Shown here in pieces: positions 7,598 through 44,900 of a stretch of DNA of 64,000 nt (its first letter is position 1; each line of letters begins with the position of its first letter). The stretch is taken from NCBI RefSeq assembly GCF_032854445.1, contig NC_088302.1:55158237-55222236 (forward strand), read 5' to 3'. The translations under genes and the position numbers were made by a program. This stretch comes from Liolophura sinensis. Its lineage: Eukaryota > Mollusca > Polyplacophora > Chitonida > Chitonidae. The notes under the pieces were generated by a model. It was not told the origin of the DNA, made no database searches, and saw only the letters and a program-made list of their open reading frames with translations.

Positions 7598-10500
7598 TTA
7601 TAGCTTGACCCTGTCCAGCTTCCAGAGCCTGTTGGGTCCGATCTCTGCCACATACACGTGCTTGCCGTTAGGGGAGACAGCCCAGGTCGTGAGGCGTGGA
7701 GAAGCCCTGGTGGACAGACAACAGTATACAGAGTTTATTCTATTTGTTTACTTTATTGAGGTTAATGCAAGACTCAAGAAAATATTTCTTAAGCGACGGT
7801 CGTTAAGTTTACACATGATATTTTCTGCAATATTGCTGAAGTGGCGGTAAGCATAATCTTTTCTCCGTCGTATTTACGCGTGGAGGAAAAGCTCGGAGAC
7901 CCGTCAGAAGCCATCCCTCTTCAGCAGGTATCTGGCACACCACCCAACTTAAAGTCGTATCTGAGACAGCTGAAGCTGGATTCAAAACACCGTTACTCAT
8001 GCGACTTGTGTTCGTCAGTCCTTCTCTCAATTCTGTATGTCTATTTTCATGTCAGTCATGCTTGACAACCATTTATATCAAGTGTTTCTGTCAATCATGC
8101 TTGTTTCTTCGTGCGTATCATTCCACCAATACTAAAAATTTTCTACTTTCATGGTAAAAAAATATATTCTTCTCTTGTAAAAGCCAGTAGCCTGTCTATT
8201 TGTAAGAGGTTCATACTGTGATTTCATGACATCAGACTTACCTCCCGAGGTCCCCAAGAATCCACGACTTGCCAGTCCTGAACATCAATAGTAAATCCCT
8301 GTACGGCCTGGAGATCCCTATTAGGCCCCATTCACAGCATACATCAGGTTCTCTGAAATGCAATACAGTTTAGTTTGGAAAGATTTACCATTTTTCATTT
8401 GGTTCATCAACATTACGCTTCATTAACGTTGTGTTTGACAACAAAACCAGCAAAACGCTACATCAACAGTAAAGTGCGCCATCAAAGGTAGAGCTATTCG
8501 GGTCCAAAGTGCGAACACTTTGAGCATACATAAAAAAAGAACACGATAAATAAGCCACACGCGCTTGATTCTTGTATTCTTGACATTCGGAGGTTCTGTA
8601 CTGACCATCGTTATCGTTGCACACATCACGTGCGAAAAGAGAGTTTTATTCACTAGCTATAAGAAGAACAAAGGAGTCCGGGGTAAGATTTCTAAAGCTC
8701 AGAGCAGGATTTAAGCGTGTTTAGTGTTACCCCACTTGAAGATAGTGGCGTAGAGTTATTTGTGAAACTTTGATTTAAGGCTATTAAAGGCAGACTTCAG
8801 AGATCACCTATGGAATTAATGTTCCACTGTCACTAGTTCCAATACACCATCAGCTGGTTCTTATGGTAAATGTCACACGTCTCTTAAACAGGTCTAAATG
8901 TCATTGTGAGATCAAAATTACCATTGGGATCGTAGGCGACGGCGTAGACTTTGGCCATCTCTGGATCAGAGACGGATACGACAAAGTTCCCAGTGTCGTT
9001 AGCATTCCTCAATCCAGCACGGAAAACACTGGATTCTGTGAGAAGAAGTAATGATAATGATAAAGCGGTACTGATGATGTCATGACATGAAAGTCTGGTG
9101 TCTGGTAATTTTTTATAAAAACTAGAAGGCACTCTTAGAGTGCAAACTTTCGCACCGGGAAAATGTACAAATTTGGTGCATGGATCACTACAGACAAAGG
9201 GGAAACTTTTCTACATTTCTGTGCTATCTATTAATAGTGAAGAATGGTTTTTTAAAATGTATCACTACCAATAATTGGTGGATTGGTCCTTAACCAAGAC
9301 AAACCTATGAATATTCATCAAAATCCGTGCATAGCGGTTTATTTCGTAACGTTTCTGACACATCAAAAGACAAAAAACATAACCTCCTTGGCGTTGGTTA
9401 TAACTAAATACTATATGAAATGTTTAATTTGCAGTTTTAACTTTAAAAATGAACAATATAGTAAATTGCATATTTATGTATTTCTGACATAGCCAGTTTT
9501 ACTTCACGGTAACATGCCGTTAAACTTATTTAGGCCCTATCTATATTTTAAGAGGTCATAATGCCAGTTTTATTATTTGGAAATTTGACTTTTTTCCATC
9601 TGAACTGTGATTGACAGCTTGAAGATGCTTGATGATGCCCGTCTGTACTAGTATTAATTTTTTTTTTTACAAGTTCGATAGCTGTTCGAAATTAGTAAGC
9701 CAGGGATTTAAAATGATTAAAGATTAAGTGGACATTATAAGTCAGATTAGAGGTCCTTACCTTCCGTGTTCTCTGTCTGCAACACACAGAAGATCCTGAG
9801 ACTCGATCAAGGTCAGGCTGTGAGGGATGCGCAGTTCGTCATCCTTCACATTATCAAAGTCTGGAAGAAGATGACAGCGATAAGTCACGTGACAGGCCTT
9901 TGAAAGATGCCGATATATAATAACAATAAACTAATGATGTTTTCAGTCGAAATCGTACTTTCTACATTTATTGAAAAATAAAACGTTAAGTTTTCGTTGA
10001 TTTTTTTATTTATTTGGCGATTAACGATCTGTGCTTAACTAGATAATTTTTGATACGACATTAATATTTTATACGACGTATTCCATTTAGCCTATTTGAG
10101 TCATCCGGAATTACATACACTGTTACTTTAGCAGCATAAAAGTTTCTCAAAATGCGACGTGTAGAGTGCCCATTTTTAAAAATCTATAAGACACAGGCAA
10201 CAGAGACTTCACGGGGAACGAACAAAGTTTCCGTTAAAAGGTTGTCTCCTTGAATTGCTCTTGCTGCTGATCTTACCGGCAGGAATTTTCCGAACTGCTT
10301 AACAAAGTGACGTAAGGTGAGAACTTCATAACTCGGCTGTTGCAATAGCTGGTAAGAAAAAGCACTGTGTTAGTGAGTTAGTCTGCCATTGTCATAAAGC
10401 TGTATGTGTTATCATGGTGACAGTATTAAACACTTTTATATGTTGGGACAGAAGATGGATATAGGGCCTGTACCAACAGTCTGGCGTTCCATTCAGGTGC

Positions 10501-13500
10501 ATTATTGGCGTTTATTGGCCAGACAGACCACGTGAGCCGGAAATTCTCGTTTAGAGCGTATGTTGAAATATTATACATCCCACGTGATAATGCTTGAAAA
10601 AGTAGTCCCGCACCTAACTTCTGACGGTTGAGGTCGTTGCAAAATTCAAGATTAAAATTCAAAATATTTTGCAACTGGAAAAAAAACGTTAACAAATTAC
10701 CCCATACGGGTAAGTCAGGAGGGATATCAGGTGCCTCACGAAGGTCGGTGGTTTTATTCCTACCATAAACTTGACTGTCGTCGTATACATAAAACATTCT
10801 TGAGCACAGAGTTAAAAATCAACCAAATAAATAAATATATAAATAAATACCCATCAGCGACGAAGAAGACACCATTAGAGGCCACAGCGACATCTGTCGG
10901 CTTACAGAAGTGTGTGTCATCGTGACCAGGCTCAAACTCCTTCCCTAACACAAATGAGGCCTCACTCGCACCTTTGGGGTATTTAAATACCTGTTGAAAT
11001 GAAATTAGGTGTTAAAATACCAGTATCAGACACTAAACCCGCTGCGTCAAGAAAAGTGCTCGAACACAATATACAACTATCAATGATGTAATGGTGTGGA
11101 TGCAGGCGTTGCATTTTGTGAAGAAATTGCTAGCAAAATATGTTTTTTTCAGCAACTAAGACACATAAGAAAGCATTTCCCATCGTAACATATGATGACA
11201 TTGATACATATCTGAACATTTAGGCTTACATTCACCGAACTAATTGTCTTAGGCTTTGGTGGAGTGTAAGGCATCCTGTATACGTCCATTGTCTACACAA
11301 TACAGTGTCAGGAGACATAACTGGCAGATGTATAGCTATTTCCCAGCCAAACAGCTAAATATCCAAACCAGAGATCTGAATGTTGAGGAAGTTAGAATGC
11401 AGGACCTGGATACCGGTTGACAGGTCACTGTAGTGCAATCCTTCAACCTACGAATGTTTTATGATTGGTCAATACAGAGTAGTTTTCAAAGAGGAAATAT
11501 AATGGACAACGGAAACGAGAGTAAAACGAGACCAGCGAGCACAGTGTGACACTTGACAAATGGTCACACGTAACCGGTGAAATACTGTCTCTTGGTCATT
11601 TACCTCAGTTAGGTTTCATCCTAACTGTTTATGTAAATGCTTCAAAATAGTAGGAAAATTTAACATACCGCATAGCGCCATGGATTAAAAGAGAAGTATG
11701 GAAAAATGCAGTCATATTGCAATTTACAGGACGCCGCTGGTCTAGAATTACTCAAAATGCGGCTTAACATCATAGAATTTGTCACTTGTGGGGGCTTCTC
11801 CCAAGGTCTGACCGGTTTCTTCTCCATATAAACCCTGCTGTGACATAAATGAACTCAAACAAATAGATAATAAATACACCGATGAAAATCTAGGAAACTA
11901 AATCTATAAATTTCTATCAGTCCGTAAAGGAATAACCGTAGATAAATATAAATAGTGAATTCGTGTGCAATTACCGGTGCCCCTGTGGATAGATAGAAGC
12001 AAACAAAACAATAAAGCCATTATTCCTGATGTAAAGCCACGTCAGTGAGACATTGTCACAGATATGCAAATGCTATAGTTGCCTGATGTAAAGCCACGTC
12101 AGTGAGACATTGACACAGATATGCAAATGCTATAGTTACCTGATGTAAAGCCACGTCAGTGAGACATTGTCACAGATATGCAAATGCTATAGTTGCCTGA
12201 TGTAAAGCCACGTCAGTGAGGCATTGACACAGATATTCAAATGCCATAGTTGTCTGATGTAAAGCCACGTCAGTGAGACATTGACACAGATATGCAAATG
12301 CTATAGTTACCTGATGTAAAGCCACGTCAGTGAGACATTGACACAGATATGCAAATGCTATAGTTGCCTGATGTAAAGCCACGTCAGTGAGACATTGACA
12401 CAGATATGCAAATGCTACAGTTACCTGATGTAAAGCCACGTCAGTGAGACATTGACACAGATATGCAAATGCTATAGTTGCCTGGTGTAAAGCCATGTCA
12501 GTGAGACATTGACACAGATATGCAAATGCTACAGTTACCTGATGTAAAGCCACGTCAGTGAGACATTGACACAGATATGCAAATGCTATGGTTACCTGAT
12601 GTAAAGCCACGTCAGTGAGACATTGACACAGATATGCAAATGCTATGGTTACCTGATGTAAAGCCACGTCAGTGAGACATTGACACAGATATGCAAATGC
12701 TATAGTTACCTGATGTAAAGCCACGTCGGTGAAACACTGACATTCATGTGCAAATAATATAATTATCTGATGCAAAACCACTTCAGAGACATTGACACGA
12801 ATGTGCAAATAATGTAGATACCTGATGCAAAGCCACGTCAGTGAGACATTGACACAGATATGCAAATGCTACAGTTACCTGATGTAAAGCCACGTCAGTG
12901 AGACATTGACACAGATATGCAAATGCTATAGTTGTCTGATGTAAAGCCACGTCAGTGAGACATTGACACAGATATGCAAATGCTATAGTTACCTGATGTA
13001 AAGCCACGTCAGTGAGACATTGACACAGATATGCAAATGCTATAGTTGCCTGATGTAAAGCCACGTCAGTGAGACATTGACACAGATATGCAAATGCTAC
13101 AGTTACCTGATGTAAAGCCACGTCAGTGAGACATTGACACAGATATGCAAATGCTATAGTTGCCTGGTGTAAAGCCATGTCAGTGAGACATTGACACAGA
13201 TATGCAAATGCTACAGTTACCTGATGTAAAGCCACGTCAGTGAGACATTGACACAGATATGCAAATGCTATGGTTACCTGATGTAAAGCCACGTCAGTGA
13301 GACATTGACACAGATATGCAAATGCTATGGTTACCTGATGTAAAGCCACGTCAGTGAGACATTGACACAGATATGCAAATGCTATAGTTACCTGATGTAA
13401 AGCCACGTCGGTGAAACACTGACATGCATGTACAAATAATATAATTATCTGATGCAAAACCACTTCAGAGAGACAGTGACACGAATGTGCAAATAATGTA

Positions 13501-16500
13501 GATACCTGATGCAAAGCCACGTCAGTCAGCCACATGTTCTCCTCGTGATCTATCGTCAAACCGTGTGGCATATAAAACCTGAAACACAACACAGTCGTTC
13601 TTGTTTTTATTTGGAGCTTCCAAAACTGAATTGAAAGAACATAATTAATGTATTAAGATTGTTGAGACTGGCTATATTGTATACCTGGGTACGTCAAGGC
13701 GTCATTGTTTAGACATTTTTATACTGGTACCCAAATTACAGCAACCCTTTAAAAACTCCCAAATTATGGAAATTTTTAGAACATTTAACTTGAATATTTG
13801 ATAAAAAAGTCAGTATATCCATGTGCACTGACCGCTCTTTGATGTACACGTAATTTTGTTACTATAAATTGGAATATAGGGTTTTAGTTCAGTTTTTGAA
13901 AACCTGAAAGTATTTTCATCAAAATTGGGCAATTAAAAGTGAAAATCAAAAAGCTACACATGTTAGTGCTACACGGAAATATTGAGACTAGGGTTGCTTA
14001 GCTTGGGATTGAATCTATATCCATGTTACAAGTACGTTGATATAATACGTTCCAGACCACAACTTACTTGTTGCTGCCGAAACGGATCTTCACGGCGCCA
14101 GATTCCTTGTCCAGAACCAGGAGAGTGTCCCCTTGGATGGGACCCAGGTCCCTCTGCTGGTAGATGTCCCCATAGCCGAATGACCTGAAGGGTGAGAAAT
14201 CGCTCTGATAAGTGAGGTAACAGCATGTATGTCATGAAAGTACATTACTTGTCATTCAGGGTGTTATCTTTAACATTATCTCAAGTAAACATTTTTACCT
14301 TCTTGTGTTCATTTATAAATGAGTTTTGCATTTTAGCTGCGAGATCTTCCTTACGCGAAACGAATTTCTACATGGCTCTGAATAGAGTATACTGTTAGAA
14401 TGTTCAGTTTATTATTTTGGATGCGGGGAAAGCTGACGTGGGAAGCATTGGTCTATTTGCGCACACTCCGGGAGAATTAATACATGTATGAGTATAATAG
14501 GACCTATGTTATAGGACACTAATGAGCCGCTGTAATAAATACTCATTTATCAGCATTCTTGGAGATCAAAACCGCACAGACGATCCACTCACTCAGCCGT
14601 CCATGCCCGCTCGGCTCTGTGGAACACATGAACGTCCCCAGCCTTGTCCGTGTCCACTCCTGCCACCTGGCCGAATTTTAGACTGCTCCCTGGCCAGTCC
14701 TTCTCAGTGAGAAGCGTGTCATAGTTCGTCACTTCCTCATCAGGCGGAAGCTACAAAAGCAATATCACTCAGTTTCAAACTTACTCTGTGTATGTTAGAT
14801 AGTTTATATGATATTGCTAATATATAAGGTGATGTATCAGTTCGGCGAAACTTGACGCTGATTATCACCCAGTAGTCAGTGTGACTGGGGCATTAAATGA
14901 TGCCAAAAGGTCTTATCGATGAGTGGATACATTAGAACATTGATTGATTTATCGACTGCTCCAGTGAGTAAGAAATCATGCTGGTGAAATATGCACGTGA
15001 TATGATTTACCCCATCCGACCATGCCACACTATACTGAGCATGTTCAGGAGTATTTATCTATCTACTTGTTTATTTGATTGGTGTTTAAGAATACTTCAC
15101 TTATACGACGGTGGCCAGTATTATGGTGGGCAGAAACCGGGCAGTGCCCGGGGGAAACCCACGACCATCCGCAGGTGGCTGGAAGACCTTCCCACGTATA
15201 CAGAGGGAGAGAGGAAACCGTATGAACTGGATGCATATTACGCACGAAGGTAAGCTTCGCTTTAATTAACTTGCCGATATCTGCTTAGGCATCTAAAATA
15301 TTGGAGGCTATATTCATCTATGTAGCGCAATGCATAATCGTGAAATCAAATCAAAGGAGGTCTCCCAAGTGAAGCATTTGACTTGATATGGAAGTCAGTT
15401 CGCTCATACAAAACGTCCATGAATATCCTCCACTCCGACGAGGGTTTAGGAATTTGTGTGAATGAGAATGGCCCACTATCGATTTCTTCATATTATTCCC
15501 AGAACTGTTGACTCAGTTTTTATTAAATTGCTAGTTATTCTCAAATTAATAAGTCCCACTTAACAAAGGCCACCTCGAGAAATATTTGTGCAATTCAGTT
15601 CTCCGTCAAACCTCATTATCCAATCTGTTATTCTCAGGGCTGGGCCTTTTGTTCACAGCAGACTGTAGTTAGATTATAACAACATGCTTCACGGCATCGA
15701 TATATCTCCATGGCAACCCTGATTGGCGGGAAATAATAATGAAGATTACATGTTGATATGTGTTGATGCATTGGCCCTGTATGTCGGCTTTAACTGTGGG
15801 AGGTGTATGGACAGTCACCTTCTCCTCGAGGTGTAATGGGTGTGAAATCCTCATACTTGAGCTAAATCGCACTTTAGATGACGCGAGATTTGCACGTTAT
15901 CAACGTACTTGTCCTCGTGTGTCAGTTCTATACTTCTGAAGAGCATATTACGCTTGGAATATGGGATTTCGCGTTACTTGCAGGAGTTGTAATTCGAGTT
16001 GTTAGGATGAATTAATATGACCCCATTATGAAAATTGTTTAAATACTTCTATATAAAACTCATAGCCAATAAACCAACAAGAAACTGATTTCACAAATTA
16101 TAGCATGCTTACAAATTTGCATACATTTTTGTATTGTATTTCGCGATTGCTCATTTATATTAGCCAGTATATTGGCCATGTCGCTTTATGAGAGTTACCG
16201 TGTACTTTTGTCTTCAGCCGTATGTCAACAACCTGCAGATGGTCATAGGTTTCTCCTGGGCTCTGCCCGGTTTCCTCCCATCATAATGCTGGCCGCCGTG
16301 GTATAAATGGAATATTGTTGAGTACGGAGTAAAACACCAGTAAAATAAATAAATAAATAAATACTTTTTTCTTGGTTTGTTGGTTATTCACTACTTCCAT
16401 ATTTCTGCAAAATTTCCCCCAAAACGGTCGTGGATAAGTGTATAACATGCAACAAAGCGATAAGCAGACTCTTCAGCGAAATCTTGTGTGGATCTCTCTA

Positions 16501-20923: not shown

Positions 20924-23900
20924 CTGCACATATTAAATCACAATATGGTTAAACAATGACTTTATGTGTAAAAACAGTGCCTACATATTACAGACTTTGC
21001 CGGCATGGACTATGGCCCTATATCTCTATTCACATGAGGTCCACTACTGCGTAGTTAAGTGCACCGTGATCAAATTGCCCACCGTAAGATACGCTGCTCT
21101 TTTTTCACGCCGACAAAACCAAGCAACCTATATCACAAACATGTAAACAAAATATAGAATCTGTCTGTTGAGTTTGGGGATGAAATTAAACATTTATAGT
21201 TTTAATCAGTTCTTACGCTGCTTAATATACATTTGATTATCAAAAGTTGTAACTCTTATTTTATACTGGAGTCATCACCTTGCTCGCTCCGGACTTAGCA
21301 GAAACCTCTTTAGCGCTTCCGCCACTGCTTGGCTTCTTTTTGACCACTATCACTTCCTCTGGGGGCAACCACCAGTTCTCATAGGCTGTCAGTCAATAAT
21401 AGAGAATGTGTCATAGAAAAGTCAAATGTCTGATCGAAAATATATCCATGCCATAGGTATAGTTTGTAACCTCAGGTTTACCTCATCGGACTGCACATAC
21501 ATTAGCTATGTATAAGCTAACATTTACTCCATTTCACACCTGGAGTCGTTTAGCAATTTAGAAAGGGAGATAACTCCAAGAGGCAAAAACTATCAACATT
21601 TGATAACTTTTCGGACTAACCTAGACTCATCCGAAGTATAGGTTTGGTAACTTTTAAATGTTCTACGATCATTTCTTGATAGGTAAGTTTGGTCTGATTT
21701 GTTGTGAACTCAGATTAAGTAACCTTGGACAGACTTAGGATCAATTTACGTTTGGTCATTTTGGTGTGATCTGGTATCAATTTACGTTTGGTAATTTTGG
21801 AATGATCTGGTATCAACTTACGTTTGGTAATTTAGGAGTGATCTGATATCATCTTACGTTTGGTAATTTTGGAGTAATCTGGTATCAACTAACGTTTCGT
21901 AATTTTGGAGTGACCGGGTATCAACTTACGTTTGGTAATTTTGGAGTGATCTGGTATCAACTTCATGTAAGACAGCTGCATCAGAAGCTCCTTGAAACTT
22001 AATGGCGGCCAGACGCGGTCATCTTTGGTCTCCTCCTTCTCCCCCCGCTGGAAAAACCGAATGTAGAGGTACTCCCCAAATATGGGGCCCATGGACCCCG
22101 GGGGAGGCCATGCCACATTCTCCAGCAGAAGAGGGATGATCGGTTTGCCCAGATTTACAGCCAAGTTTACCTGACAAAGAAAGGCATTTTGATGTCGAGT
22201 GACTGGACGAATACCTTTATCAATGGCATGGTTTCGTAATCTTGATCAATTTCATGGAATATAAGATAAAAACGCTTTAAGTGAAAATTCCTTTTACGTT
22301 TTGATAAGCGTAGCTTTGCATATCAGGTTGAATGTTTTGTAATGGAACAACTTCCACCAGCCGCTGACATACACCCACCTCCCTGTTACAGTTGGGTGAC
22401 CTGGCGTACTTCTCCGTCACACAGCAGATGACCACTTTGGCCGCCCGTATTCCTTGGTCAATCTTGGCATACAGTTTATCTCCCCCTCCCATCTGACCGA
22501 TGTCCAGCCAACTTTCGAAACCCGCCATTTCCAGGTGTTTACGGAGCAGTCTCACTTCCGGTTGATGACCCCACTGGTAACTGATGAAAATAGGGGGTGG
22601 AATATCGTAGTCAAGAGGTTCGTCCTCAACCACATTCTCTGAAAATAGGAGGAAAGAAGCACTGAAAGTGACTTTTATGGTAATAAAGACAAATACAGTT
22701 GGCTGGTAACAGGGTCATGTTACATATTCCAAACTCGACGTGCTATAACCGAAAACAAATACAATATCTGTGGCCAAAAACGAAACCAAAAAGACAGGAG
22801 TGTTCCAACATTACAAATTATTTATTTAATTGAATTATTTTAAAGATATGTTTATCCATATTTTGCTATTATCCACGATTTAAGAATATGTTTGAAGAGG
22901 CTACTTCTTTGGAACAGATTATATGACCAATGTTTCCGTCTTAGAAGCCACTGTCAAGAAGTTTTAGTACAAAAATCGAAGGCATAAGTATGATTGTTGC
23001 AACGTTAAAATATAGCAGCAGAAAACGTGGATGCATAGTACACGAAGAAAGATCTAAAGTGGTATGTATAGTACACGAATAAAGATCTAAAGTAGTGACA
23101 TTATATGTTTACCAACAGCCTGCATGGCCCTGCCAACGATCTCAGCGGCCGTCCAGACGGTTCATCTCCTCCAGAGTTTTGAGGACGGCTTTTGTCGCCT
23201 CGCTGGTTTTGTGGGTGGCGAACCACTCGCTAAGGAGTGACATACAGGGGTCGTGTTGTGTGGCCCAGCCCCGGATGTCCTCAGGGGTGTAGCCCAATCT
23301 CTGGGCAAGTAGGCGCCAGTCATGCTCAGCCTCAGGGTTGAGGAGGAGAGGAAACGTCCCGTGACCACACTGGGGCGTGACTCAAAGTCTGTCGGGGAAA
23401 AGCAAGCAATGACGAAACGTTACAGGATTGATTTAAATATTTAACGCCAGCTACTGAAATTTATTTACGCAATAGCGGCCAGATTTACAGAGAATCGATC
23501 TTTAGGAAGTTACTGACGAATTTTCTTACGTGTGACATATGTCATATTGGTTTAAGACAAGTGGTCTCCTGAGAACCTCTTGCAAGAAGACGCCAGAGAT
23601 CTATTCTTGCATCGACTATAATGGAAGCAGGAGACTCTAGGTTTATTGATTTGTCATAATTTGCTTATTCTTGTAATGGTGGAAATATTTATCCCACTGA
23701 GATTTAAACTCGGGTTTTCACATCCTAAATCCAGTACACTACACCAATTTTTCTAAAATTTCCATCAGCTATTATCATTGGATAGCACCGCCATCACAAT
23801 TACTCCACATGATGTCTGTATCCGCACCTTTTTATCAATCTCCTCGACCTTCATCACGGTGTCGTCGACCACTACCTCCAGGTCACCTATCTTTCCTTCC

Positions 23901-29900: not shown

Positions 29901-32900
29901 GGCATCGCTGTAATTGTTTGTACAGAAATGCAGGCTTTTAAATTTAACATCTAAGACTTCAAAAGTTCACTTAGGATTGGTAGGAAGCCTAAGAAAGAGC
30001 TCGCCTGTATGAGACACATGAATGCAAAACTTCAGCTCTATGCATAAAGAATCGTGAATTTGGTAATTTAGAGTAACTAATATGTTCACAGAGCATCAGC
30101 GATGGAACATTCCCCTTGCGTCATTATGCTTTCTATGCATGTAAAACCTCAAGTCGATACAAGTACAATAATTTTTCAGATACAAACCCTAAAATTTGGA
30201 TTAACAGTATTTAATATGCACATATCCAATCAATGATCGAATATCGACCTCTTGCTAGCGTGCTCTACATGTGAGAAAACCCTGAGCTCAATACCTGCAG
30301 TGCTTTTGGAGACACCACCCCTAACATTTTGTTTAACATTGATTCTCATACATAATACACTAAGTCAGGAATTCAGTGATTTACGGTACTGAATATGCAC
30401 ACTTCGGATCAACGATGGAATATCCCCCTCGTGATAGTGTGCATTACAGGTGTGCAAAACATGATCTAAATACATGCAGTACTTTTTGAGTGAATGAGTG
30501 AGTGAGTGAGTGAGTGAATGCTTCAGGTTTAACGTCGTACTTAACAATTTTTTTAGTCATATAACGACGAAAGAATCCTAAGAGTGCTTGTAATGTGCCT
30601 CCTCGTTTCAGGACGGATTTCCACCGCTCTCTTATCTAGTGCTGCTTCACTGAGACGAGTTACCAGAGGCAAGTAAGCTGCCCCGCCCGAGCCATTATAC
30701 TGATACAAGTCAACCAGTTGTTGCACTATCCAATGAATGACCCTGACTCGACCCTGAATCTATCGCCTCTCGAAGTGGACGCTCCATCAACTATGCTATC
30801 GGCCGATCAGTACTTTTTGAGAAACCACCCCTAACATTTTGTTTAACATTAATTCTTATACACAATACACTAAGTAAGTAATTCAGCCACTTGCAGTACA
30901 TTTTGTTTAATATTGCTTTCTCTATTATTAGACGCCGACGTCGACGCGCGGGGTATGATATAAGTTACGCCTGTACTTTATACAGGCGAGCTAAAAATAT
31001 GTATGGAAGAACTTCTTAGCATGTGGAATTGTGCGTGTTATAATTCACAATTTATTAGGCAATATTAGGGGCCTAATACTACAGTCGCTATGCGATGAGA
31101 AGATTACTTTCAAGATTTCAACAGTTATGAAAGTTTAAAATTGCAAACAGGCATTTGTCTACTTGTGAGTACTAGTCAACTAGTTAGCGATGTCTCCTTC
31201 GCTGGGTACCTATTTGTAAATTTGAACAAGATTCATATTCTTCCTGTCTGGGACATCACGCATAGAAAACACGACGACCAATATGACAAGTAATTAGCCT
31301 ACATCCCAATCATAAGTAAAGAAACAAATCTACCGCCCATATCTGTAAAGGCCATATTGAAACCATTCACAAGTAAGGGATCTTTATTGGACTTATCACT
31401 ATACTACAGTAACTAACATATTGCAGAATACATGGGAACCATTCACCAGTAAGGCATCTGTACTGGACTTATCACTATACTACAGTAACTAACATATAGC
31501 AGAATACATCGGAACCATTCACCAGTAAGGCATCTGTACTGGACTTATCACTATACTACAGTAACTAACATATAGCAGAATACATCGGAACCATTCACCA
31601 GTAAGGCATCTGTACTGGACTTATCACTATACTACAGTAACTGACATATAGCTGAATACATCGGAACCATTCACCAGTAAGGCATCTGTACTGGACTTAT
31701 CACTATACTACAGTAACTAACATATAGCAGAATACATCGGAACCATTCACCAGTAAGGCATCTGTACTGGACTTATCACTATACTACAGTAACTGACATA
31801 TAGCAGAATACATCGGAACCATTCACCAGTAAGGCATCTGTACTGGACTTATCACTATACTACAGTAACTGACATATAGCAGAATATATCGGAACCATTC
31901 ACCAGTAAGGCATCTGTACTGGACTTATCACTATACTACAGTAACTTACACATAGCTGAATAAATCGGAACCATTCACCAGTAAGGGATCTGTACTGGAC
32001 TTATCACTATACTACAGTAACTTACACATAGCTGAATAAATCGGAACCATTCACCAGTAAGGGATCTGTACTGGACTTATCACTATACTACAGTAACTTA
32101 CACATAGCTGAATACATCGGAACCATTCACCAGTAAGGCATCTGTACTGGACTTATCACTATACTACAGTAACTAACACATAGCAGAATATATCGGAACC
32201 ATTCACCAGTAAGGCATCTGTACTGGACTTATCACTATACTACAGTAACTTACACATAGCTGAATACATCGGAACCATTCACCAGTAAGGCATCTGAATT
32301 GGACTTATCACTATACTACAGTAACTTACACATAGCTGAATACATCGGAACCATTCACCAGTAAGGCATCTGTACTGGACTTATCACTATACTACAGTAA
32401 CTGACATATAGCAGAATACATCGGAACCATTCACCAGTAAGGCATCTGTACTGGACTTATCACTATACTACAGTAACTGACATATAGCAGAATACATCGG
32501 AACCATTCACCAGTAAGGCATCTGTACTGGACTTATCACTATACTACAGTAACTGACATATAGCAGAATACATCGGAACCATTCACCAGTAAGGCATCTG
32601 TACTGGACTTATCACTATACTACAGTAACTAACATATAGCAGAATATATCGGAACCATTCACCAGTAAGGCATCTGAATTGGACTTATCACTATACTACA
32701 GTAACTTACACATAGCTGAATATATCGGAACCATTCACCAGTAAGGCATCTGAATTGGACTTATCACTATACTACAGTAACTGACACATAGCTGAATACA
32801 TCGGAACCATTCACCAGTAAGGCATCTGTACTGGACTTATCACTATACTACAGTAACTGACATATAGCAGAATATATCGGAACCATTCACCAGTAAGGGA

Positions 32901-35900
32901 CCTGTACTGGACTTATCACTATACTACAGTAACTGACATATAGCAGAATACATCGGAACCATTCACCAGTAAGGCATCTGTACTGGACTTATCACTATAC
33001 TACAGTAACTAACATATAGCAGAATACATCGGAACCATTCACCAGTAAGGCATCTGTACTGGACTTATCACTATACTACAGTAACTTACACATAGCTGAA
33101 TAAATCGGAACCATTCACCAGTAAGGGATCTGTACTGGACTTATCACTATACTACAGTAACTTACACATAGCTGAATACATCGGAACCATTCACCAGTAA
33201 GGCATCTGTACTGGACTTATCACTATACTACAGTAACTAACACATAGCAGAATACATCGGAACCATTCACCAGTAAGGCATCTGTACTGGACTTATCACT
33301 ATACTACAGTAACTTACACATAGCTGAATAAATCGGAACCATTCACCAGTAAGGCATCTGTACTGGACTTATCACTATACTACAGTAACTTACACATAGC
33401 TGAATACATCGGAACCATTCACCAGTAAGGCATCTGTACTGGACTTATCACTATACTACAGTAACTAACATATAGCAGAATATATCGGAACCATTCACCA
33501 GTAAGGGATCTGTACTGGACTTATCACTATACTACAGTAACTTACACATAGCTGAATAAATCGGAACCATTCACCAGTAAGGGATCTGTACTGGACTTAT
33601 CACTATACTACAGTAACTTACACATAGCTGAATACATCGGAACCATTCACCAGTAAGGCATCTGTACTGGACTTATCACTATACTACAGTAACTAACATA
33701 TAGCAGAATATATCGGAACCATTCACCAGTAAGGCATCTGTACTGGACTTATCACTATACTACAGTAACTCACACATAGCTGAATAAATCGGAACCATTC
33801 ACCAGTAAGGCATCTGTACTGGACTTATCACTATACTACAGTAACTTACACATAGCTGAATACATCGGAACCATTCACCAGTAAGGCATCTGTACTGGAC
33901 TTATCACTATACTACAGTAACTAACATATAGCAGAATATATCGGAACCATTCACCAGTAAGGCATCTGTACTGGACTTATCACTATACTACAGTAACTGA
34001 CATATAGCAGAATACATCGGAACCATTCACCAGTAAGGCATCTGTACTGGACTTATCACTATACTACAGTAACTAACATATAGCAGAATATATCGGAACC
34101 ATTCACCAGTAAGGCATCTGTACTGGACTTATCACTATACTACAGTAACTTACACATAGCTGAATACATCGGAACCATTCAGCAGTAAGGCATCTGAATT
34201 GGACTTATCACTATACTACAGTAACTTACACATAGCTGAATACATCGGAACCATTCACCAGTAAGGCATCTGTACTGGACTTATCACTATACTACAGTAA
34301 CTTACACATAGCTGAATACATCGGAACCATTCACCAGTAAGGCATCTGTACTGGACTTATCACTATACTACAGTAACTAACATATAGCAGAATATATCGG
34401 AACCATTCACCAGTAAGGGATCTGTACTGGACTTATCACTATACTACAGTAACTTACACATAGCTGAATAAATCGGAACCATTCACCAGTAAGGGATCTG
34501 TACTGGACTTATCACTATACTACAGTAACTTACACATAGCTGAATACATCGGAACCATTCACCAGTAAGGCATCTGTACTGGACTTATCACTATACTACA
34601 GTAACTAACATATAGCAGAATATATCGGAACCATTCACCAGTAAGGCATCTGTACTGGACTTATCACTATACTACAGTAACTTACACATAGCTGAATAAA
34701 TCGGAACCATTCACCAGTAAGGCATCTGTACTGGACTTATCACTATACTACAGTAACTTACACATAGCTGAATACATCGGAACCATTCACCAGTAAGGCA
34801 TCTGTACTGGACTTATCACTATACTACAGTAACTGACATATAGCAGAATACATCGGAACCATTCACCAGTAAGGCATCTGTACTGGACTAATCACTATAC
34901 TACAGTAACTAACATATAGCAGAATATATCGGAACCATTCACCAGTAAGGCATCTGTACTGGACTTATCACTATACTACAGTAACTTACACATAGCTGAA
35001 TACATCGGAACCATTCAGCAGTAAGGCATCTGAATTGGACTTATCACTATACTACAGTAACTTACACATAGCTGAATACATCGGAACCATTCACCAGTAA
35101 GGCATCTGTACTGGACTTATCACTATACTACAGTAACTAACATATAGCAGAATACATCGGAACCATTCACCAGTAAGGGATCTGTACTGGACTTATCACT
35201 ATACTACAGTAACTGACATATAGCAGAATACATCGGAACCATTCACCAGTAAGGCATCTGTACTGGACTTATCACTATACTACAGTAACTGACATATAGC
35301 AGAATACATCGGAACCATTCACCAGTAAGGCATCTGTACTGGACTTATCACTATACTACAGTAACTAACATATAGCAGAATATATCGGAACCATTCACCA
35401 GTAAGGCATCTGTACTGGACTTATCACTATACTACAGTAACTTACACATAGCTGAATATATCGGAACCATTCACCAGTAAGGCATCTGAATTGGACTTAT
35501 CACTATACTACAGTAACTTACACATAGCTGAATACATCGGAACCATTCACCAGTAAGGCATCTGTACTGGACTTATCACTATACCATTTTAACTGACATA
35601 TAGCAGAATACATCGGAACCATTCACCAGTAAGGCATCTGTACTGGACTTATCACTATACTACAGTAACTGACATATAGCAGAATATATCGGAACCATTC
35701 ACCAGTAAGGCATCTGTACTGGACTTATCACTATACTACAGTAACTAACATATAGCAGAATACATCGGAACCATTCACCAGTAAGGCATCTGTACTGGAC
35801 TTATCACTATACTACAGTAACTTACACATAGCTGAATAAATCGGAACCATTCACCAGTAAGGGATCTGTACTGGACTTATCACTATACTACAGTAACTTA

Positions 35901-38900
35901 CACATAGCTGAATACATCGGAACCATTCACCAGTAAGGCATCTGTACTGGACTTATCACTATACCATAGTAACTAACACATAGCAGAATACATCGGAACC
36001 ATTCACCAGTAAGGCATCTGTACTGGACTTATCACTATACTACAGTAACTTACACATAGCTGAATAAATCGGAACCATTCACCAGTAAGGCATCTGTACT
36101 GGACTTATCACTATACTACAGTAACTTACACATAGCTGAATACATCGGAACCATTCACCAGTAAGGCATCTGTACTGGACTTATCACTATACTACAGTAA
36201 CTAACATATAGCAGAATATATCGGAACCATTCACCAGTAAGGGATCTGTACTGGACTTATCACTATACTACAGTAACTTACACATAGCTGAATAAATCGG
36301 AACCATTCACCAGTAAGGGATCTGTACTGGACTTATCACTATACTACAGTAACTTACACATAGCTGAATGCATCGGAACCATTCACCAGTAAGGCATCTG
36401 TACTGGACTTATCACTATACTACAGCAACTAACATATAGCAGAATATATCGGAACCATTCACCAGTAAGGCATCTGTACTGGACTTATCACTATACTACA
36501 GTAACTTACACATAGCTGAATAAATCGGAACCATTCACCAGTAAGGCATCTGTACTGGACTTATCACTATACTACAGTAACTTACACATAGCTGAATACA
36601 TCGGAACCATTCACCAGTAAGGCATCTGTACTGGACTTATCACTATACTACAGTAACTAACATATAGCAGAATATATCGGAACCATTCACCAGTAAGGGA
36701 TCTGTACTGGACTTATCACTATACTACAGTAACTGACATATAGCAGAATACATCGGAACCATTCACCAGTAAGGCATCTGTACTGGACTTATCACTATAC
36801 TACAGTAACTAACATATTTCAGAATACATCGGAACCATTCACCAGTAAGGCATCTGTACTGGACTTATCACTATACTACAGTAACTAACATATAGCAGAA
36901 TATATCGGAACCATTCACCAGTAAGGCATCTGTACTGGACTTATCACTATACTACAGTAACTGACATATAGCAGAATATATCGGAACCATTCACCAGTAA
37001 GGCATCTGTACTGGACTTATCACTATACTACAGTAACTAACATATAGCAGAATATATCGAAACTATTCATAAGTAACAAATATGTAACAGACCACATTAA
37101 AATCACTATAACTAACAGATTTTGAAGCAGACTCTATCAGGTCCATCCGTAATTTGTTACAGCTTACATTAGAACCATCACGAAGAACAAACTCTAAGGG
37201 CTGTACCACAGTCATTCATATAAAAAAGAACAAAATGTCTTGAATCTTGGAATACCAGGTTGAAGACATATCAAGTCAATATTAAGGACACAATTTAAGT
37301 GAGTGAGTGAGAGGGTGAGTTCTTAGGGTTTAACGTCTTCTTAACAATATTTCTGTCATATGAGGACGAAGGAGTCCTTAGCAAACACACTTTAAATCCA
37401 ATAATTTGATACCATTACATTTTATACAAATATAGTAGTAATGTATATAACTAGGTTTAGGGATATTCAAGTATACCTTGCTCCAGCTGGCTTGAGGAAA
37501 TACTCGAGCAGATCTTTGATCACGCCTCCCAAGCAATCCGGGTGGGGAATATCCAAAATGAGGTTTGTCAGCATTGGGGCGTATTTCTTGAACAGTTCGT
37601 GTTTTTTCTGTAAGAAAGACGTTGAACATCAAGGCAAAGTTAAGTAAGTTGTAGTAACAAAAATGTCATTCACAAATAGACGGCCTAAATATATTTTGAT
37701 CACCAGAATTAATTTCTAGAAAAAACAGGCTTCTAATTTAGAAAAAATTAGAAAGCCTAGTCATTGAAAGACAAACACCAGGGTTAAACACTCGGCCACT
37801 GACCGCTCCTCCAGTCATCAGTAGGTTACAACACACAAAAGACTGTGTAATACTGGTTACGCACCTCTACCAGCTGCTTGTTGTTCCTCAGTCCGTTGAT
37901 GAAAGACGAGAACGGATCCATTACTTTCTCTTGACTCTCACCCACTGGCAGTTTAGCGACGATACAGAACAGCTTCATGACCTCATCCAGATGAAGATTG
38001 AAATATGTCTTGTTTTGTCTGCGGTAAAATAAAAGAAATGAAACATTGTCAACGGTTTAGCACCTGTCAGACAGAGATGATAAACAGTAGTTCAGTAGCA
38101 GTAATCCTGCAGTGATAGGGTACGGAAATATATATATATATATATTCTTCGGAAAGGTGTTGTCAGTAAAGGCATCGAGATGAAGTAAAGCTAGTTTTGA
38201 TGTTCATGTCTATATATTACTGATTTCGCTTTACAAACTGGACCCCTTATTTTTGCCCCTGAAGACCACTGTACCCAACAACGGAGCGAGAACATCGTGC
38301 TTGAGCCCTTCAGGATGGTAAGCGCCCTCTAGCTACAGTAAACAGGGCCGTAACTTGTCTTCAGTCTCCCTTCAGCACACATGAGTTCGTTTACAGGTCA
38401 ATGTCCATGGATTTTCAGTACAACTGATATGTAGGATTTCAACTCACATTATTGGCTCTAGTATGTTGCGTAAACAATATCTGAAGATGTCTCCCTGTTT
38501 TTCAAAGGCTGGATATTTACCGGCCTTAAAGAACTTCCCAAAGGCCTGTAGTTGCTCTTGAAAACAAAATGGCTTTGGGTCCGGTACCACACTTTCTAAA
38601 TCCTGTAAAACAATGATACAACCTTCTTTTCAGAAAAAATCAGTCCACAGGCGCCATTTGATTACATATCATTTTCATTTCATTTCATTTATTTCAACAA
38701 AATATATACTTAATATGATTTAGATGCATTCTGGATATTTAAATATAAGTACAAAATCAATGTATAACATAAGTTGTAATCAAATATTTGACGGGACTTT
38801 GGGGGCGTACCCACCGATTGATACATGTTTTATATAATTTATTGAAATGATCAGTAAAGAAAATTGATATCACAAAGAGTATATGAACATATCAAGGTGA

Positions 38901-41900
38901 AACTAAACGCATTCACATGCTGACCGCTAGTTAAATATGGGGTTTAATGACAAGATGAAATATAACAAAATGTTGTAAGTCCCCCAATGGTATAAGTATT
39001 CCTATACCACTCACAACATTCTGGTATATATATGTATTTTTAATTAGAAAAGCTTTAATTTCGCGCTTAAATAAAAAAATAGATTTTACATTTTTGAGAC
39101 TTGGGGGAAGATTATTCCACACACTTCTAATTCATGCAGAATGAAATGATAAATTTGATGAGTAGAAAGAACAATAAAGATTTGTTCTGCAATCTCTAGT
39201 ATTGCATCTATGAACATCAAACAGCATGATAAAAAAGATTTTTGATAATGAACTGGCAGTTAAAATGAATGGTGGAAGTGCTTATGCACTAAAAGCAGGA
39301 TTCGGTACATATTTATCTGGATCAGCGTTAGTATTTTCAGATATTTAAATATTGGACCTGCATGTTCAAGTGGAATTGATTGGTTAATAATTCTAACTGC
39401 ACGTATCTGAAGGATATGATGGGGAGCAAGATGTGGAATATATGTGTTACCCCATAAGATGTTGCTGTTTGACAGGTATGGGAATATAAGAGAATAATAC
39501 AAAACAATCAATCTATTTTTATTCAGACAAGATTTAATATTACTGATGACGCCAAGATTTCCAGATATTTTCTTTACACATTTATTCATTTATGTCAGAT
39601 TTCTAGTTTAGCTTACTATTAAAATAAACTCCTTAAAATAAAATTTATAGTTGTCAACTTTGTCAACATTAACGCCATTTATGTTAAGAGATTAACTCTT
39701 GATACCCTTTTATTAGGGCTCACTATGATAAATTTGGTTTTACCTACATTAAGGTAGAACCCTGATCAACTGTCGCAGCCTACGTCCATAGTCATTATCA
39801 AGTTACAGGCTTTAATTTTACTTGATTGATAGGTGTTTTACGCCGTACTCAAGAATATTTCACTTATACGACGGCGCCCAGCATTATGGTGGGAGGAAAC
39901 CGGACAGAGCCTCGGGGGAAAACCCCAAGCCATCTGCAGGTTACTTGCGACCGCATTGATGAGAGGCTTGTGGGTCATTACGCTACGCTAGCGCGCTAAC
40001 CAACTGCGCCACAGACGGCCCGCTTTAACTTTAGATGTGATCCCCTTATAAAGGCACACAAATCTTGCGTATTTATGTTTTTATTTATTTGACTGGCGTT
40101 TTACGTAGTATTAAAGAAAATTTCACCTATGTGATTTTAGCCAGAATTATGATGGAAGGAAACCGGGCAAAGCCCGCGGAAGAGATTGTAAATACCATAA
40201 CAACACATATTAAAGGCATATCAGCTATGACTGTTACAATCCAAGAATTTTCTAAGTGAATCACACTCTCTGTCAGAATTCCAGCGGGTGAGCACATCCT
40301 TTCTCGAGACCGCTTTGGTGGCTTAATGGTTAGAGCCTCGGCCTCGAAGTCGGAATACCCACGATCAAATCCCGGTCGGGTCATAGTTTTTTTAAAATGA
40401 TACTTGCTGCTGCCTTGCTTGGCGCTCAGAGAGGTTAGTGCAAGGAAACTTGACTGGTGACTGGTTGCCCTGTTATCAGTATAATGTGACTGGATGGGGT
40501 GTCATGTCTGATGTCTCCGGCATGCTACTCCAGTGAGGGCAGCACTTTGGCGACATGGACTCGCTCTGCCACAAGAAGACACACAATATTTATATACATC
40601 TAATGACTCATCGTCGTGATATGGCTGAAAAATTGTTACGTACGACGTAAAACGCCAATCATACCTACATAAATACATACATCCTTTCTCGTGGCCCTAA
40701 CTAACTCGCTCCGTCTGATTCTCTGAACATACCTTCCATTTTTCTCTCCCCATCAGGTTCTCAATGGCGTTACACAGATTTGTGTAGTAAAGTTTGGCCA
40801 TGTATTCATCCGCGTCGGACACCTGGCTCTGGTAAAACATGAGCAGCTTCACGAATGCACCGCGGTGCTGCGAACATTGCTCCTTCCTAAATTGTGATAC
40901 AACAACAGATATAGAGAAACATTAATCTCGTGAAAAGTTTGGTTCTGTTATGCCGCTCTGTTCCAGTCAGAGTTTATTATTTGTTAATGACCATATTATA
41001 TTTCAATGATAACATCTAAATAAGACATCTTCTCATATTTTCTCAGCAAACTGACAACATTCACACTACACCTATGATCCAAATCACGCTTATGAGAACA
41101 TCTAAATAAGACATCTTCTCATATTCTCTCAGCAAACTGACAACATTCACACTACACCTATGATCCAAATCACGCTGAAAAGAACATCTAAATAAGACAT
41201 CTTCTCATATTCTCTCAGCAAACTGACAACATTCACACTACACCTATGATACAAATCACGCTTATAAGAACATCTGAATAATTTGTCTTCTCCACACGCA
41301 GGTTAATTTCTCACTGATCTGTGATAACGCCTGGAAAATGTGCGTCCTCACCACGGCAAAGGTAATTTCTCAAAGTATTTTCAGTAGCATCTAAAAATGT
41401 TTTTAGTACGGTGGATAATTTGGACATACATGTACGATTACGCCTAATGGATGTTCTGCGCACCGTAGTTACTTTCTCACTTGACTGTATCTTAAATACT
41501 AGGTAGTTCATTTGTTATTGGTCTATGCAATAACTACTAGGTAGTTTATTTGTTATTTATTTATTTATTTATTTATTTATTCATTTAATTATTTCATTAT
41601 TTATTTATTTGATTGGCGTTTTACGCCGTACTCAACAATATTGCACTTATACGACGGCGGCCAGCATTATGGTTGGCGGAAAAGGGGCAGAGCTCGCGGG
41701 AAACCCACGATCATCCGTAGGTTGCTGAAGACCTTCTCACTTCCGGCCGGAGAGGAAGCCAGCATGAACCGGACTTGAACCCACAGCGACTTTGTTACTA
41801 GACTGTACGATAGCTATATGGTAGTTAATTTGTTATTGGACTGTACGATAACTATATGGTAGTTAATTTGTTATTGGACTGTACGATAACTACATGGTAG

Positions 41901-44900
41901 TTAATTTGTTATTGGACTGTACGATAACTACATGGTAGTTAATTTGTTATTGGACAGTACGATAACTATATGGTAGTTAATTTGTTATTGGACTGTACGA
42001 TAACTACATGGTAGTTAATTTGTTATTGGACTGTATGATAACTACATGGTAGTTAATTTGTTACTAGACGATACGATAACTACATGGTAGTTAATTTGTT
42101 ATTGGACTGTATGATAACTACATGGTAGTTAATTTGTTATTGGACAATACGATAACTATATGGTAGTTAATTTGTTATTGGACTGTACGATAACTACATG
42201 GTAGTTAATTTGTTATTGGACAATACGATAACTACGAGGTAGTTAATTTGTTATTGGACTGTATGATAACTACATGGTAGTTAATTTGTTATTGGACTGT
42301 ATGATAACTACATGGTAGTTAATTTGTTATTGGACTGTACGATAACTACATGGTAGTTAATTTGTTATTGGACAATACGATAACTATATGGTAGTTAATT
42401 TGTTATTGGACTGTACGATAACTATATGGTAGTTAATTTGTTACTAGACGATACGATAACTACATGGTAGTTAATTTGTTATTGGACTGTATGATAACTA
42501 TATGGTAGTTAATTTGTTATTGGACAATACGATAACTACATGGTAGTTAATTTGTTATTGGACTGTATGATAACTACATGGTAGTTAATTTGTTATTGGA
42601 CTGTATGATAACTACATGGTAGTTAATTTGTTATTGGACTGTACGATAACTACATGGTAGTTAATTTGTTATTGGACAATACGATAACTATATGGTAGTT
42701 AATTTGTTATTGGACTGTACGATAACTATATGGTAGTTAATTTGTTACTAGACGATACGATAACTACATGGTAGTTAATTTGTTATTGGACTGTATGATA
42801 ACTATATGGTAGTTAATTTGTTATTGGACAATACGATAACTACATGGTAGTTAATTTGTTCTTGGGCTGTATGATAACTATATGGTAGTTAATTTCTGAC
42901 TGGACTTACGAAAGTGCCTGAATCACGTGTGATCTCAGCACGCTGGTTAATTTCTCGCAGTAGTCTTTCGGGAGGGTCTCGCTGTTGACAAACTTCTTCT
43001 GTATCCCAGTCAGTAAACTAATCAGTTTTGTACCACTCAGACTCTGAAGTAAATGAGGAACTAGACACCATGTTTAGCAACAACTGACAGAGCATGCACT
43101 CTGGATTGAAAGAGGTAGAGAGGTTCCATCCAGCTCTGTAAAGTTTTATTCAGCAGTAAACTTGACTGCCGTTTTTTTATTCAAATGTTCATAAAATATC
43201 AGTTAATTTATTTCTTTATTTATTCATCCATAAGACCATTGTATACCGCAATACTTTAGAATATAACAAGTATACAATGTAAACCATCGACTATTGGCAA
43301 GTTACTGCCACACTTTCCTACCTGTGACGTAGGCCTGCAGATATGCGCACCATATATGTGCAAGACAAACTTGTGGATTTTAAAGGGGACATATTGCCGA
43401 CGGTGACATAATATACTGTTACTTTAGACGTCATCTGCATAAAGATGGGATTCCAGACGTCTTCTGACATGTATCTGATTTTGAGTGAACAATCGAATAT
43501 TCAGTTTTATCCGGGATTTCCCTCCATCACCGTCGCTATATGTAGAAACATGGCCGAAGATTGGCTTTTTGGACTGGACTACCTCCCCTTGTTGTCTAAT
43601 GACAAGAGATGTTCAGGGAACTTCAATGTCAGACACAGCAATGAGTTGTAATTATGCGGCCTACCACGTAACATTGTCTACATGTGCGATCCACGAGGCA
43701 GTGTGGGAATCTTTGCGCATTCTCATTTGCATTTTTATGGCGTCTGGTGGACAGCTTAGACCAGTGACGGATTACCCCTTATAATTGTCTTAATTGACAT
43801 TATTCAGAAAATATAGGCCCAAGAGGTTTATTTAGGAGTCAGTGCAACGCATTTTTGTATTTATCTCAACCAACTCAAAAATTCTGAAATTCTTTCTTAT
43901 GTCCCTTAAATGAATGTTATAGACTGTTTAAAACGGCTACGTGAGCGTCGGGGACCGATTATTGTCACCAAGGTTTTAGAAACAATTACAAATTCGCTGT
44001 CCAAGGTTTGGTTTGAACACGAACTTTGTGTGACCTAGCGAATAGAAGATAACCACCTTAACCACTCAGGCACAGCCTTTCTTTACTCATAATATAGCAA
44101 ACTAATTAAATAGCATAATATTAAAGGTATATAGTCCCCTGCTTTCACGTGAAACTGAAAATATACCGCGTAATTACGTGACAAATAACGGTACCAATTT
44201 TGTGTTTAATTAGTGAGTTATGAAAATCCTGCATGTCTACTTACTTGTGGCCTACCTTTAGATAGCCCTGGAAACTCCGCCTGCAGGCCACTGTGTACAT
44301 CAGGTCAATCTGTGCTAGGCTGGGGCCAGCTGCTGTACACGCTATTAGGAATGAGGCGTACTCATCATGAAAGGCGTCATCTTCTCTGGTTAACAATACC
44401 GTTATCTTATGTTACAGTAACAAGCTGTTGAATTACATACGGAAATAAGGGTGTTTTAACATTACCAAAATCTGGAGACTTACGAAATAAGTAAGCTTTA
44501 ACATTTAACAAAATCTGAAGACTAATTGTGTAGCCGGACAATTTAGCAATCGGATTTTTTTTTTTACGATATGCCCTCATTCTGCACTGTCAGATATTTA
44601 GTCGAAATAGATTAATATTTAGTCAAAACAGATTAATATTAAGTCATCTATATCCGCTATGAAAATTACAAGAAAACTGGTCGTAAAATCCATATCTGCA
44701 AATATAATGAATAAAGTTATCTAAATGCTAAGTTATTTTGACAGCTATGTTTGTAGGCTTCAAGTTTGTTTAAAGCTTGGGCTTACTTGATGTGTTGTAA
44801 GATCCATTCAAGTGCCTTTTTCGCCAAGGCCGCCGGGCCGGTGTCGTATACTGGGAAGTTGGAGGAGCAGACAACAGACTGCAGATGTTTGAATGCCGCC

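Follow-up and report, generated by a model that had tools for sequence, protein, structure and literature searches.

A minisatellite repeating an exon-intron boundary in a PAL gene of the chiton Liolophura sinensis

The PAL locus and its tandem array

The window analysed here (a stretch of 64,000 nucleotides of Liolophura sinensis contig NC_088302.1, positions 55,158,237 to 55,222,236) carries a gene on its minus strand that matches rat PAL (3fvz, phmmer E 1.8e-45), as an earlier note on this DNA had proposed. The homology is to the PAL catalytic core, with an additional NHL repeat match (2e-8), and the name PAL denotes this homology, activity not being claimed. The exons run from 14589..14699 (matching DWPGSSLKFGQVAGVDTDKAGDVHVFHRAERAWTA, bounds taken from the protein match) and 14068..14184 (SFGYGDIYQQRDLGPIQGDTLLVLDKESGAVKIRFGSN) to the exon at which the array lies (13506..13578, FYMPHGLTIDHEENMWLTDVALHQ, donor CAG/GTATCT with its GT at 13505-13504), followed by the next exon at 10851..10990 (VFKYPKGASEASFVLGKEFEPGHDDTHFCKPTDVAVASNGVFFVADG, acceptor CAACAG/GTATTT) and then by those at 10277..10348 (YCNSRVMKFSP to HFVKQFGKFLP), 9760..9861 (DFDNVKDDELRIPHSLTLIESQDLLCVADREHGR, open), 8908..9057 (the GLRNANDTGNFVVSVSDPEMAKVYAVAYDPN region, likewise bounded by the protein match), 8242..8345 (YAVNG to GPNRDLQAVQGFTIDVQDWQVVDSWGPRE, high end approximate) and, as the last, 7598..7706 (GFSTPHDL to AVSPNGKHVYVAEIGPNRLWKLDRVKL). 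As assembled, the catalytic-core frame is not intact, since it is broken in three exons (10277..10348, 8242..8345 and 7598..7706). This copy may be in decay, with a second PAL gene present in the genome, or the three breaks could be consensus errors, the HiFi depth of the assembly (HiFi plus Omni-C) being 14x according to the available part of its description (PMC11068029).

At 12025-13526 lies a tandem array with a period of 57, 26.4 copies and 92% matches (TRF), of which each unit (minus strand) comprises the PAL exon end, the donor and some 39 bp of the intron, so that the repetition of this boundary described in the earlier note is confirmed by both TRF and unit alignment. The true end of the exon forms unit 0 (GACGTGGCTTTGCATCAG/GTATCT), while the core units read GACGTGGCTTTACATCAG/GTAACT. 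The match between exon end and unit is ~24 bases long with 2 mismatches, and for this 24-mer the next-best site in the window outside the array reaches only 16/24, so the units derive from the exon end. Units 12-23 (12158..12839) are a higher-order duplicate of units 0-11 (12 units, 684 bp), to which 673 of the 682 aligned bases are identical; the authentic donor recurs at unit 12. The core is homogenised, whereas the edges (units 0-1, as well as their copies 12-13) diverge from it. A single DNA search with the array sequence gave no match outside its own locus. The block duplication had been absent from the earlier note.

The PAL paralogue carries a different array (60 bp x 10.4) in the intron corresponding to the one that holds the donor array in the window copy, but on the acceptor side. 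The intron position is common to both paralogues and the two arrays thus sit at its opposite ends. In the frame of the next exon, the paralogue array contains 10 stops in 630 bp.

Donor positions and reading frame

In register, the authentic donor and the 26 array copies give 27 positions, of which 16 are GT, 6 GC, 2 AT, 2 AC and 1 GA, so the variability that had been noticed before is real. There are 15 GT donors besides the authentic one, and in 14 of the 26 copies they score 8.0-8.9 against 6.1 for the authentic donor (by matrix score), with a U1 pairing of -8.0 kcal/mol for these higher-scoring donors compared to -7.2 for the authentic one. As 14 array donors outscore the authentic donor, the donor sequences give no obvious preference for the proximal one.

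The exon frame stays open up to and including the donor at position 12 (positions 0-12, 12783..13523, i.e. 12 further units, close to the earlier estimate), after which it meets its first stop, a TGA at 12785-12783 that is preceded by a 2-bp deletion; GT is present at 9/13 of the in-frame donor positions. The next acceptor (CAACAG/GTATTTAAA) is in phase 0, with a predicted junction DVALHQ/VFKYPKG, and 57 bp correspond to 19 codons; therefore any in-frame donor, if used, would lengthen the protein by n x 19 residues, in agreement with the prediction that had been made. A literature search lent no support to the zinc-ligand numbering assumed for PAL. Among the in-frame core units, four kinds of variant alter a residue and two are silent (manual reading), and hence there is no sign of constraint on the encoded peptide.

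Arrays at other exon edges in the genome

By a single criterion, repetition of the donor motif CAGGTAAGT, 13 arrays were fetched from the genome, and in eight of these manual reading found an exon-like frame at the start. Four of the exon edges were confirmed by library matches (Smad MH2, 3.6e-11; GH31, 3.5e-13; DAGK_acc, 1e-9; RPC1, 1.4e-8). For the other four, naming by homology was weak or failed: the best match of L008 was polycystin-2 (E 0.13), L013 gave DeoC below the cut-off (E 0.092) with a partly inexact query and no PDB match with the exact one, and no family was found for L014 and L016. The remaining five (L006, L007, L009, L011 and L015) showed no recognisable exon. In the exon-edge arrays examined, the period was a multiple of 3 in 3/10, which equals the chance rate.

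As controls, six arrays on C1 were used, for which none of 10 picked reading frames exceeded the Pfam cut-off (best E 0.03). The flanking frame of a seventh control array, L025 (C9), likewise had no Pfam match over the cut-off (E 0.078); it contains the donor motif and was excluded from the 0/6 count, while L026 and L027 entered a repeat scan only. Exon-like ends were thus found in 8/13 donor-motif arrays against 0/6 control arrays (Fisher p 0.018), or 4/13 against 0/6 when only library-confirmed exons are counted (p 0.26). However, the excess of CAGGTAAGT over its reversed motif is 50.5%; were about half of its sites real donors, 8/13 at exon-like ends would be expected (p 0.58 against that expectation).

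The ratio of three-motif to single-motif hits was 301/9807 (3.1%) with the donor motif; among the controls it was 158/4854 (3.3%) with the motif reversed, 44/2757 (1.6%) with a permutation that preserves dinucleotides and 122/4840 (2.5%) with that permutation reversed, i.e. donor-containing arrays occur at about the frequency of controls. Counted as distinct arrays per motif, the donor motif gave 1.6-1.7 times the controls (one-sided p 0.07-0.11), an excess that is not significant but leaves room for some donor-linked bias. Among 26 arrays picked without regard to donors, donor enrichment was absent (1/26 at p<0.05). Genome-wide donor enrichment in minisatellites was rejected on the basis of these unselected arrays, and a donor-seeking mechanism because array rates are near those of the control motifs.

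A probably tolerated mirage and its alternatives

A minisatellite that multiplies a splice boundary is of an already published kind, so the earlier statement that none had been described was wrong. In amphioxus, according to the available parts of two reports, mirages are minisatellite-like tandem duplications of a 5' or 3' exon-intron boundary with units of 10-160 bp, often containing AG/GT splice signals, whose cluster edges escape homogenisation; they occur in Adh3, the globins BflGb6 and BflGb9, troponin C and PGBD5, RT-PCR on those of globin and Adh3 suggested regular splicing, and the possibility was raised that mirages are general among cephalochordates (PMC3087553, PMC3902484). Like these, the PAL array duplicates the boundary of its host exon, keeps splice signals in many (not all) units and has edges diverged from the core; unlike them, it resides in a mollusc, has 26 copies in PAL and is known here from one genome assembly. 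An amphioxus source for the DNA, considered because of these precedents, was rejected; the mitochondrial gene order is of a mollusc type. Internal tandem repeats at exon-intron boundaries have also been reported for human segmentally duplicated genes, on average four 30-bp units in recent paralogues, with transcript evidence in the accessible text (PMC2812944). These too are minisatellite variation at an exon-intron boundary, which in the human case can alter splicing, but their units are shorter and their transcripts were seen, whereas the evidence for the PAL array is DNA. The available texts on intronic minisatellites of earthworm metallothionein (PMC12783039) and C. elegans (PMC4039745) do not describe repeats spanning splice sites.

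It is very probable that the PAL array is a mirage, seeded at the exon-intron boundary, that a minisatellite-rich chiton genome tolerates, and not a device kept by selection for making isoforms. The seed would have been a tandem duplication of exon end, donor and proximal intron, which could have grown by slippage or unequal exchange, with the 12-unit block duplication among the events. The array would persist because the exon is still defined by its proximal first donor, which leaves the other units within the intron, and the in-frame period would be due to chance (about 1 in 3). In favour of this reading are the exon-derived units, the amphioxus precedents, the comparable arrays at other exon edges with periods at the chance rate, the stops in the paralogue array, the near-control rate of donor-containing arrays, the lack of enrichment in unselected arrays and the frame breaks in three other exons. 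The 14 stronger GT donors, the frame that is open for 12 further units and stops only after a 2-bp deletion, the 1.6-1.7-fold excess and the chance that the frame breaks are consensus errors speak against it.

The same open frame, together with the 19-codon unit, GT at 9/13 in-frame positions and the phase 0 acceptor, would suit a functional ladder, in which alternative donors yield PAL isoforms longer by n x 19 residues. Yet the exon-edge arrays examined are in frame at the chance rate only, the paralogue array carries stops, three other exons of the window copy have broken frames, the core-unit variants betray no peptide constraint and amphioxus mirages appear from the published reports to splice normally. 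These results leave the isoform device suggested by the earlier note unsupported, and we consider it very improbable. It is likewise very improbable that chiton genes including PAL use several array donors such that minisatellite length sets the n x 19-residue insert and varies it by individual or tissue. Somewhat doubtful, but a serious possibility, is functionless noise, i.e. several donors used at a low level, so that some transcripts would stay in frame and others would stop prematurely. The 15 extra GT donors (14 above the authentic score) and the alternative transcripts reported from human boundary repeats are in line with this, while the RT-PCR on the globin and Adh3 mirages points to regular splicing. 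Noisy splicing is compatible with a tolerated mirage, and the confidences in the two overlap.

Placement of arrays at donors by a directed process or by selection (e.g. for intron-end redundancy or U1 recruitment) would fit the nominal difference from the control arrays, the 1.6-1.7-fold rate and the two paralogues with one array at each end of a shared intron. It is nevertheless unlikely, as the first is expected if about half of the motif sites are real donors and is lost with library-confirmed exons only, the second is not significant, and the donor-unselected arrays lack enrichment. Tandem arrays are easily mis-sized in assemblies. An artefact as the origin of the PAL array is nonetheless exceedingly improbable, given mutually distinct units, diverged edges, a block duplication, a search match to a single locus and an assembly published, by its available description, as HiFi plus Omni-C.

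For the tolerated mirage, a further parallel is the Rogers model (cited in PMC3087553), in which introns are reportedly gained via tandem duplication of AG/GT segments. The PAL units contain AG/GT as well, and the array could therefore supply boundaries for new introns; the model differs in that a new intron is not shown at PAL, where the intron position is common to both paralogues. Several exon-edge mirages in a mollusc, and arrays at opposite intron ends in the PAL paralogues, suggest that mirages arise wherever minisatellites are abundant. The chiton mirages are natural test sites, both for the idea that introns are gained by tandem duplication and for the choice that the spliceosome makes between one donor and its many near-identical neighbours.

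Anatomy of the PAL array and its counterpart in a paralogue

Tandem Repeats Finder reports a single array at 12025-13526 of the window (period 57 bp, 26.4 copies, 92% matches), which on the - strand starts at the 3' end of the exon encoding FYMPHGLTIDHEENMWLTDVALHQ and extends into the intron. Together with its neighbouring exons, this exon matches the catalytic core of rat PAL (peptidyl-alpha-hydroxyglycine alpha-amidating lyase; 3fvz, E 1.8e-45), and the unit consensus differs from the final 24 exon bases at only 2 positions, the next-best window match being 16/24. The 27 donor positions in register, numbered from the authentic donor (position 0, GT at 13505-13504) into the intron, comprise 16 GT, 6 GC, 2 AT, 2 AC and 1 GA. 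The exon frame is open up to the donor of position 12, the first in-frame TGA being found at 12785-12783 (i.e. after a 2-bp deletion), and the downstream acceptor, CAACAG|GTATTTAAA at 10991/10990, is in phase 0. The earlier note's description of a 57-bp unit that repeats the PAL exon end, with varying donors and a frame open for about 12 units, therefore holds. The possible insertion point lies 19 residues past the His of PHGL, which we take to be the first zinc ligand of PAL; a literature search gave no support for this zinc-ligand role.

The array contains a block duplication in which units 12-23 copy units 0-11, with 673 identities over 682 aligned bases and one 2-bp gap; identity between units is maximal at a lag of 12 (0.965). 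The authentic exon end and its donor therefore recur in unit 12. Units at the edge (0-1) and those copied from them (12-13) are distinct from the homogenised core, a pattern that the amphioxus globin paper describes for the BflGb6 cluster boundaries. When donors were scored with a donor-site matrix and by U1 pairing, 14 of the 26 array copies outscored the authentic donor, which counts against the proximal donor winning by strength.

A second PAL gene is present at 34.02 Mb of contig C8, with an intron at the same place as the array intron (DVALHQ|GTATGG; acceptor TTCGCAG|GTATTTCG). Here, a 60-bp x 10.4 array (C8:34023791-34024394) repeats the acceptor together with roughly 19 bases from the start of the following exon; thus, this intron has its array on the donor side in the window copy and on the acceptor side in the paralogue. 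The 630 bp upstream of the paralogue's next exon contain 10 stops in that exon's frame, so that its upstream acceptors could not yield a long coding insert. A partial genome duplication has been reported in Liolophura (PMC12005716), which is a possible source of the two PAL copies.

Arrays at other exon edges

A search of 609.46 Mb in 632 contigs for three CAGGTAAGT with gaps of 20-50 gave 301 matches genome-wide. The matches listed cover contigs C1, C2 and C3 to ~ 23.27 Mb and amount, on manual reading, to 14-15 distinct arrays, 13 of which were fetched. Among these, 8 of 13 start with an exon-like reading frame (again by manual reading). The exon was confirmed by Pfam for Smad MH2 (L017), GH31 (L012) and the diacylglycerol kinase accessory domain (L018 with L029), and by phmmer for RNA polymerase III RPC1 (L010); the exon-like starts of L008, L013, L014 and L016 are without homology confirmation, and no exon was recognised at the other five fetched arrays (L006, L007, L009, L011 and L015). 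On C1, six control arrays chosen with the reversed motif had no recognisable exon (Fisher 8/13 vs 0/6, p 0.018; with the homology-confirmed 4/13 only, p 0.26). The 44-bp array at the diacylglycerol kinase exon donor (C3:23271700-23275728) has ~ 92 copies in the fetched stretch, below which triple-motif matches extend further.

Per single motif, triple matches numbered 301/9807 for the donor and 158/4854 for the reversed donor; a dinucleotide-preserving permutation gave 44/2757 and its reverse 122/4840. In the fully listed regions the donor's distinct-array rate is 1.6-1.7 times that of the controls (one-sided p 0.07-0.11), based on 14-15 donor versus 23 control arrays read manually and on single motifs assumed to be evenly spread, and a modest donor bias is possible. 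No strong-donor excess was found in 26 non-PAL arrays from the window and ten fixed 10-kb stretches (1/26 at p<0.05); the ten stretches contain 19 arrays, making up 11.85 of 100 kb (hand-summed). The CAGGTAAGT total exceeds the reversed-motif count by about half of all CAGGTAAGT, and 8/13 at exon ends is therefore what is expected for unbiased matches (p 0.58). We conclude that donors are hit by arrays about as often as the background would predict, and that arrays at such sites are tolerated.

The window contains further arrays, the longest being a 76-bp x 75 minisatellite at 31361-37076 (95% matches). At 41791-42911, a 38-bp x 29.5 array starts beside a donor, that of an exon-like frame on the - strand whose end reads ...SVLRSHVIQALS|GTAAGT; a 36-bp x 6.2 array at 21740-21963, some units of which contain AAC|GTAAGT, continues from a - strand reading frame (21889-22245) that presumably encodes a TIR protein. 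When read on the - strand, the 39-bp x 9.8 array at 62153-62534 has an open frame of GQDFAVMGMAVKV repeats and may be a coding repeat. Elsewhere in the assembly, contig C99, with seven COX1 matches ~ 15.5 kb apart, is a mitochondrial concatemer.

Kinship and unlikely coding role of the PAL array

The earlier note had proposed that use of the distal donors would insert multiples of 19 residues. Of ten exon-edge arrays (including PAL, the paralogue and four unconfirmed cases), three have a period that is a multiple of 3, which is the chance rate; the period of L013 was entered as 37, the alternative reported period of 49 likewise not being divisible by 3. As assembled, the window PAL copy also has frame breaks in three other exons (10277-10348, 8242-8345 and 7598-7706), the first of which is one continuous frame in the paralogue; these breaks may be real decay (i.e. 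a possible pseudogene) or consensus errors. Taken together, the chance-rate periods and the frame breaks make it unlikely that the array is an isoform device.

The claim that no such minisatellite had been described does not stand: amphioxus mirages (minisatellite-like tandem duplications of an exon-intron boundary), the kind to which the PAL array belongs, and human boundary repeats are both published. PMC3902484 adds troponin C and PGBD5 to the mirage genes, and PMC2812944 describes altered splicing by human tandem repeats located at exon-intron boundaries. No report of mirages in molluscs was found among the literature matches listed (including the best 20 of 2,676 and the best 10 of 14), which leaves their absence unproven. 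The word 'tandem' is absent from the main text of one chiton genome paper (PMC11068029), as are 'minisatellite' and 'tandem repeat' from that of another (PMC12005716); the species of the published chiton assembly was first named Liolophura japonica and later corrected to L. sinensis.

The PAL array is most likely an intronic minisatellite that is tolerated, its in-frame period being coincidental; the observation itself is genuine and extends an already known type of repeat to a new animal branch.
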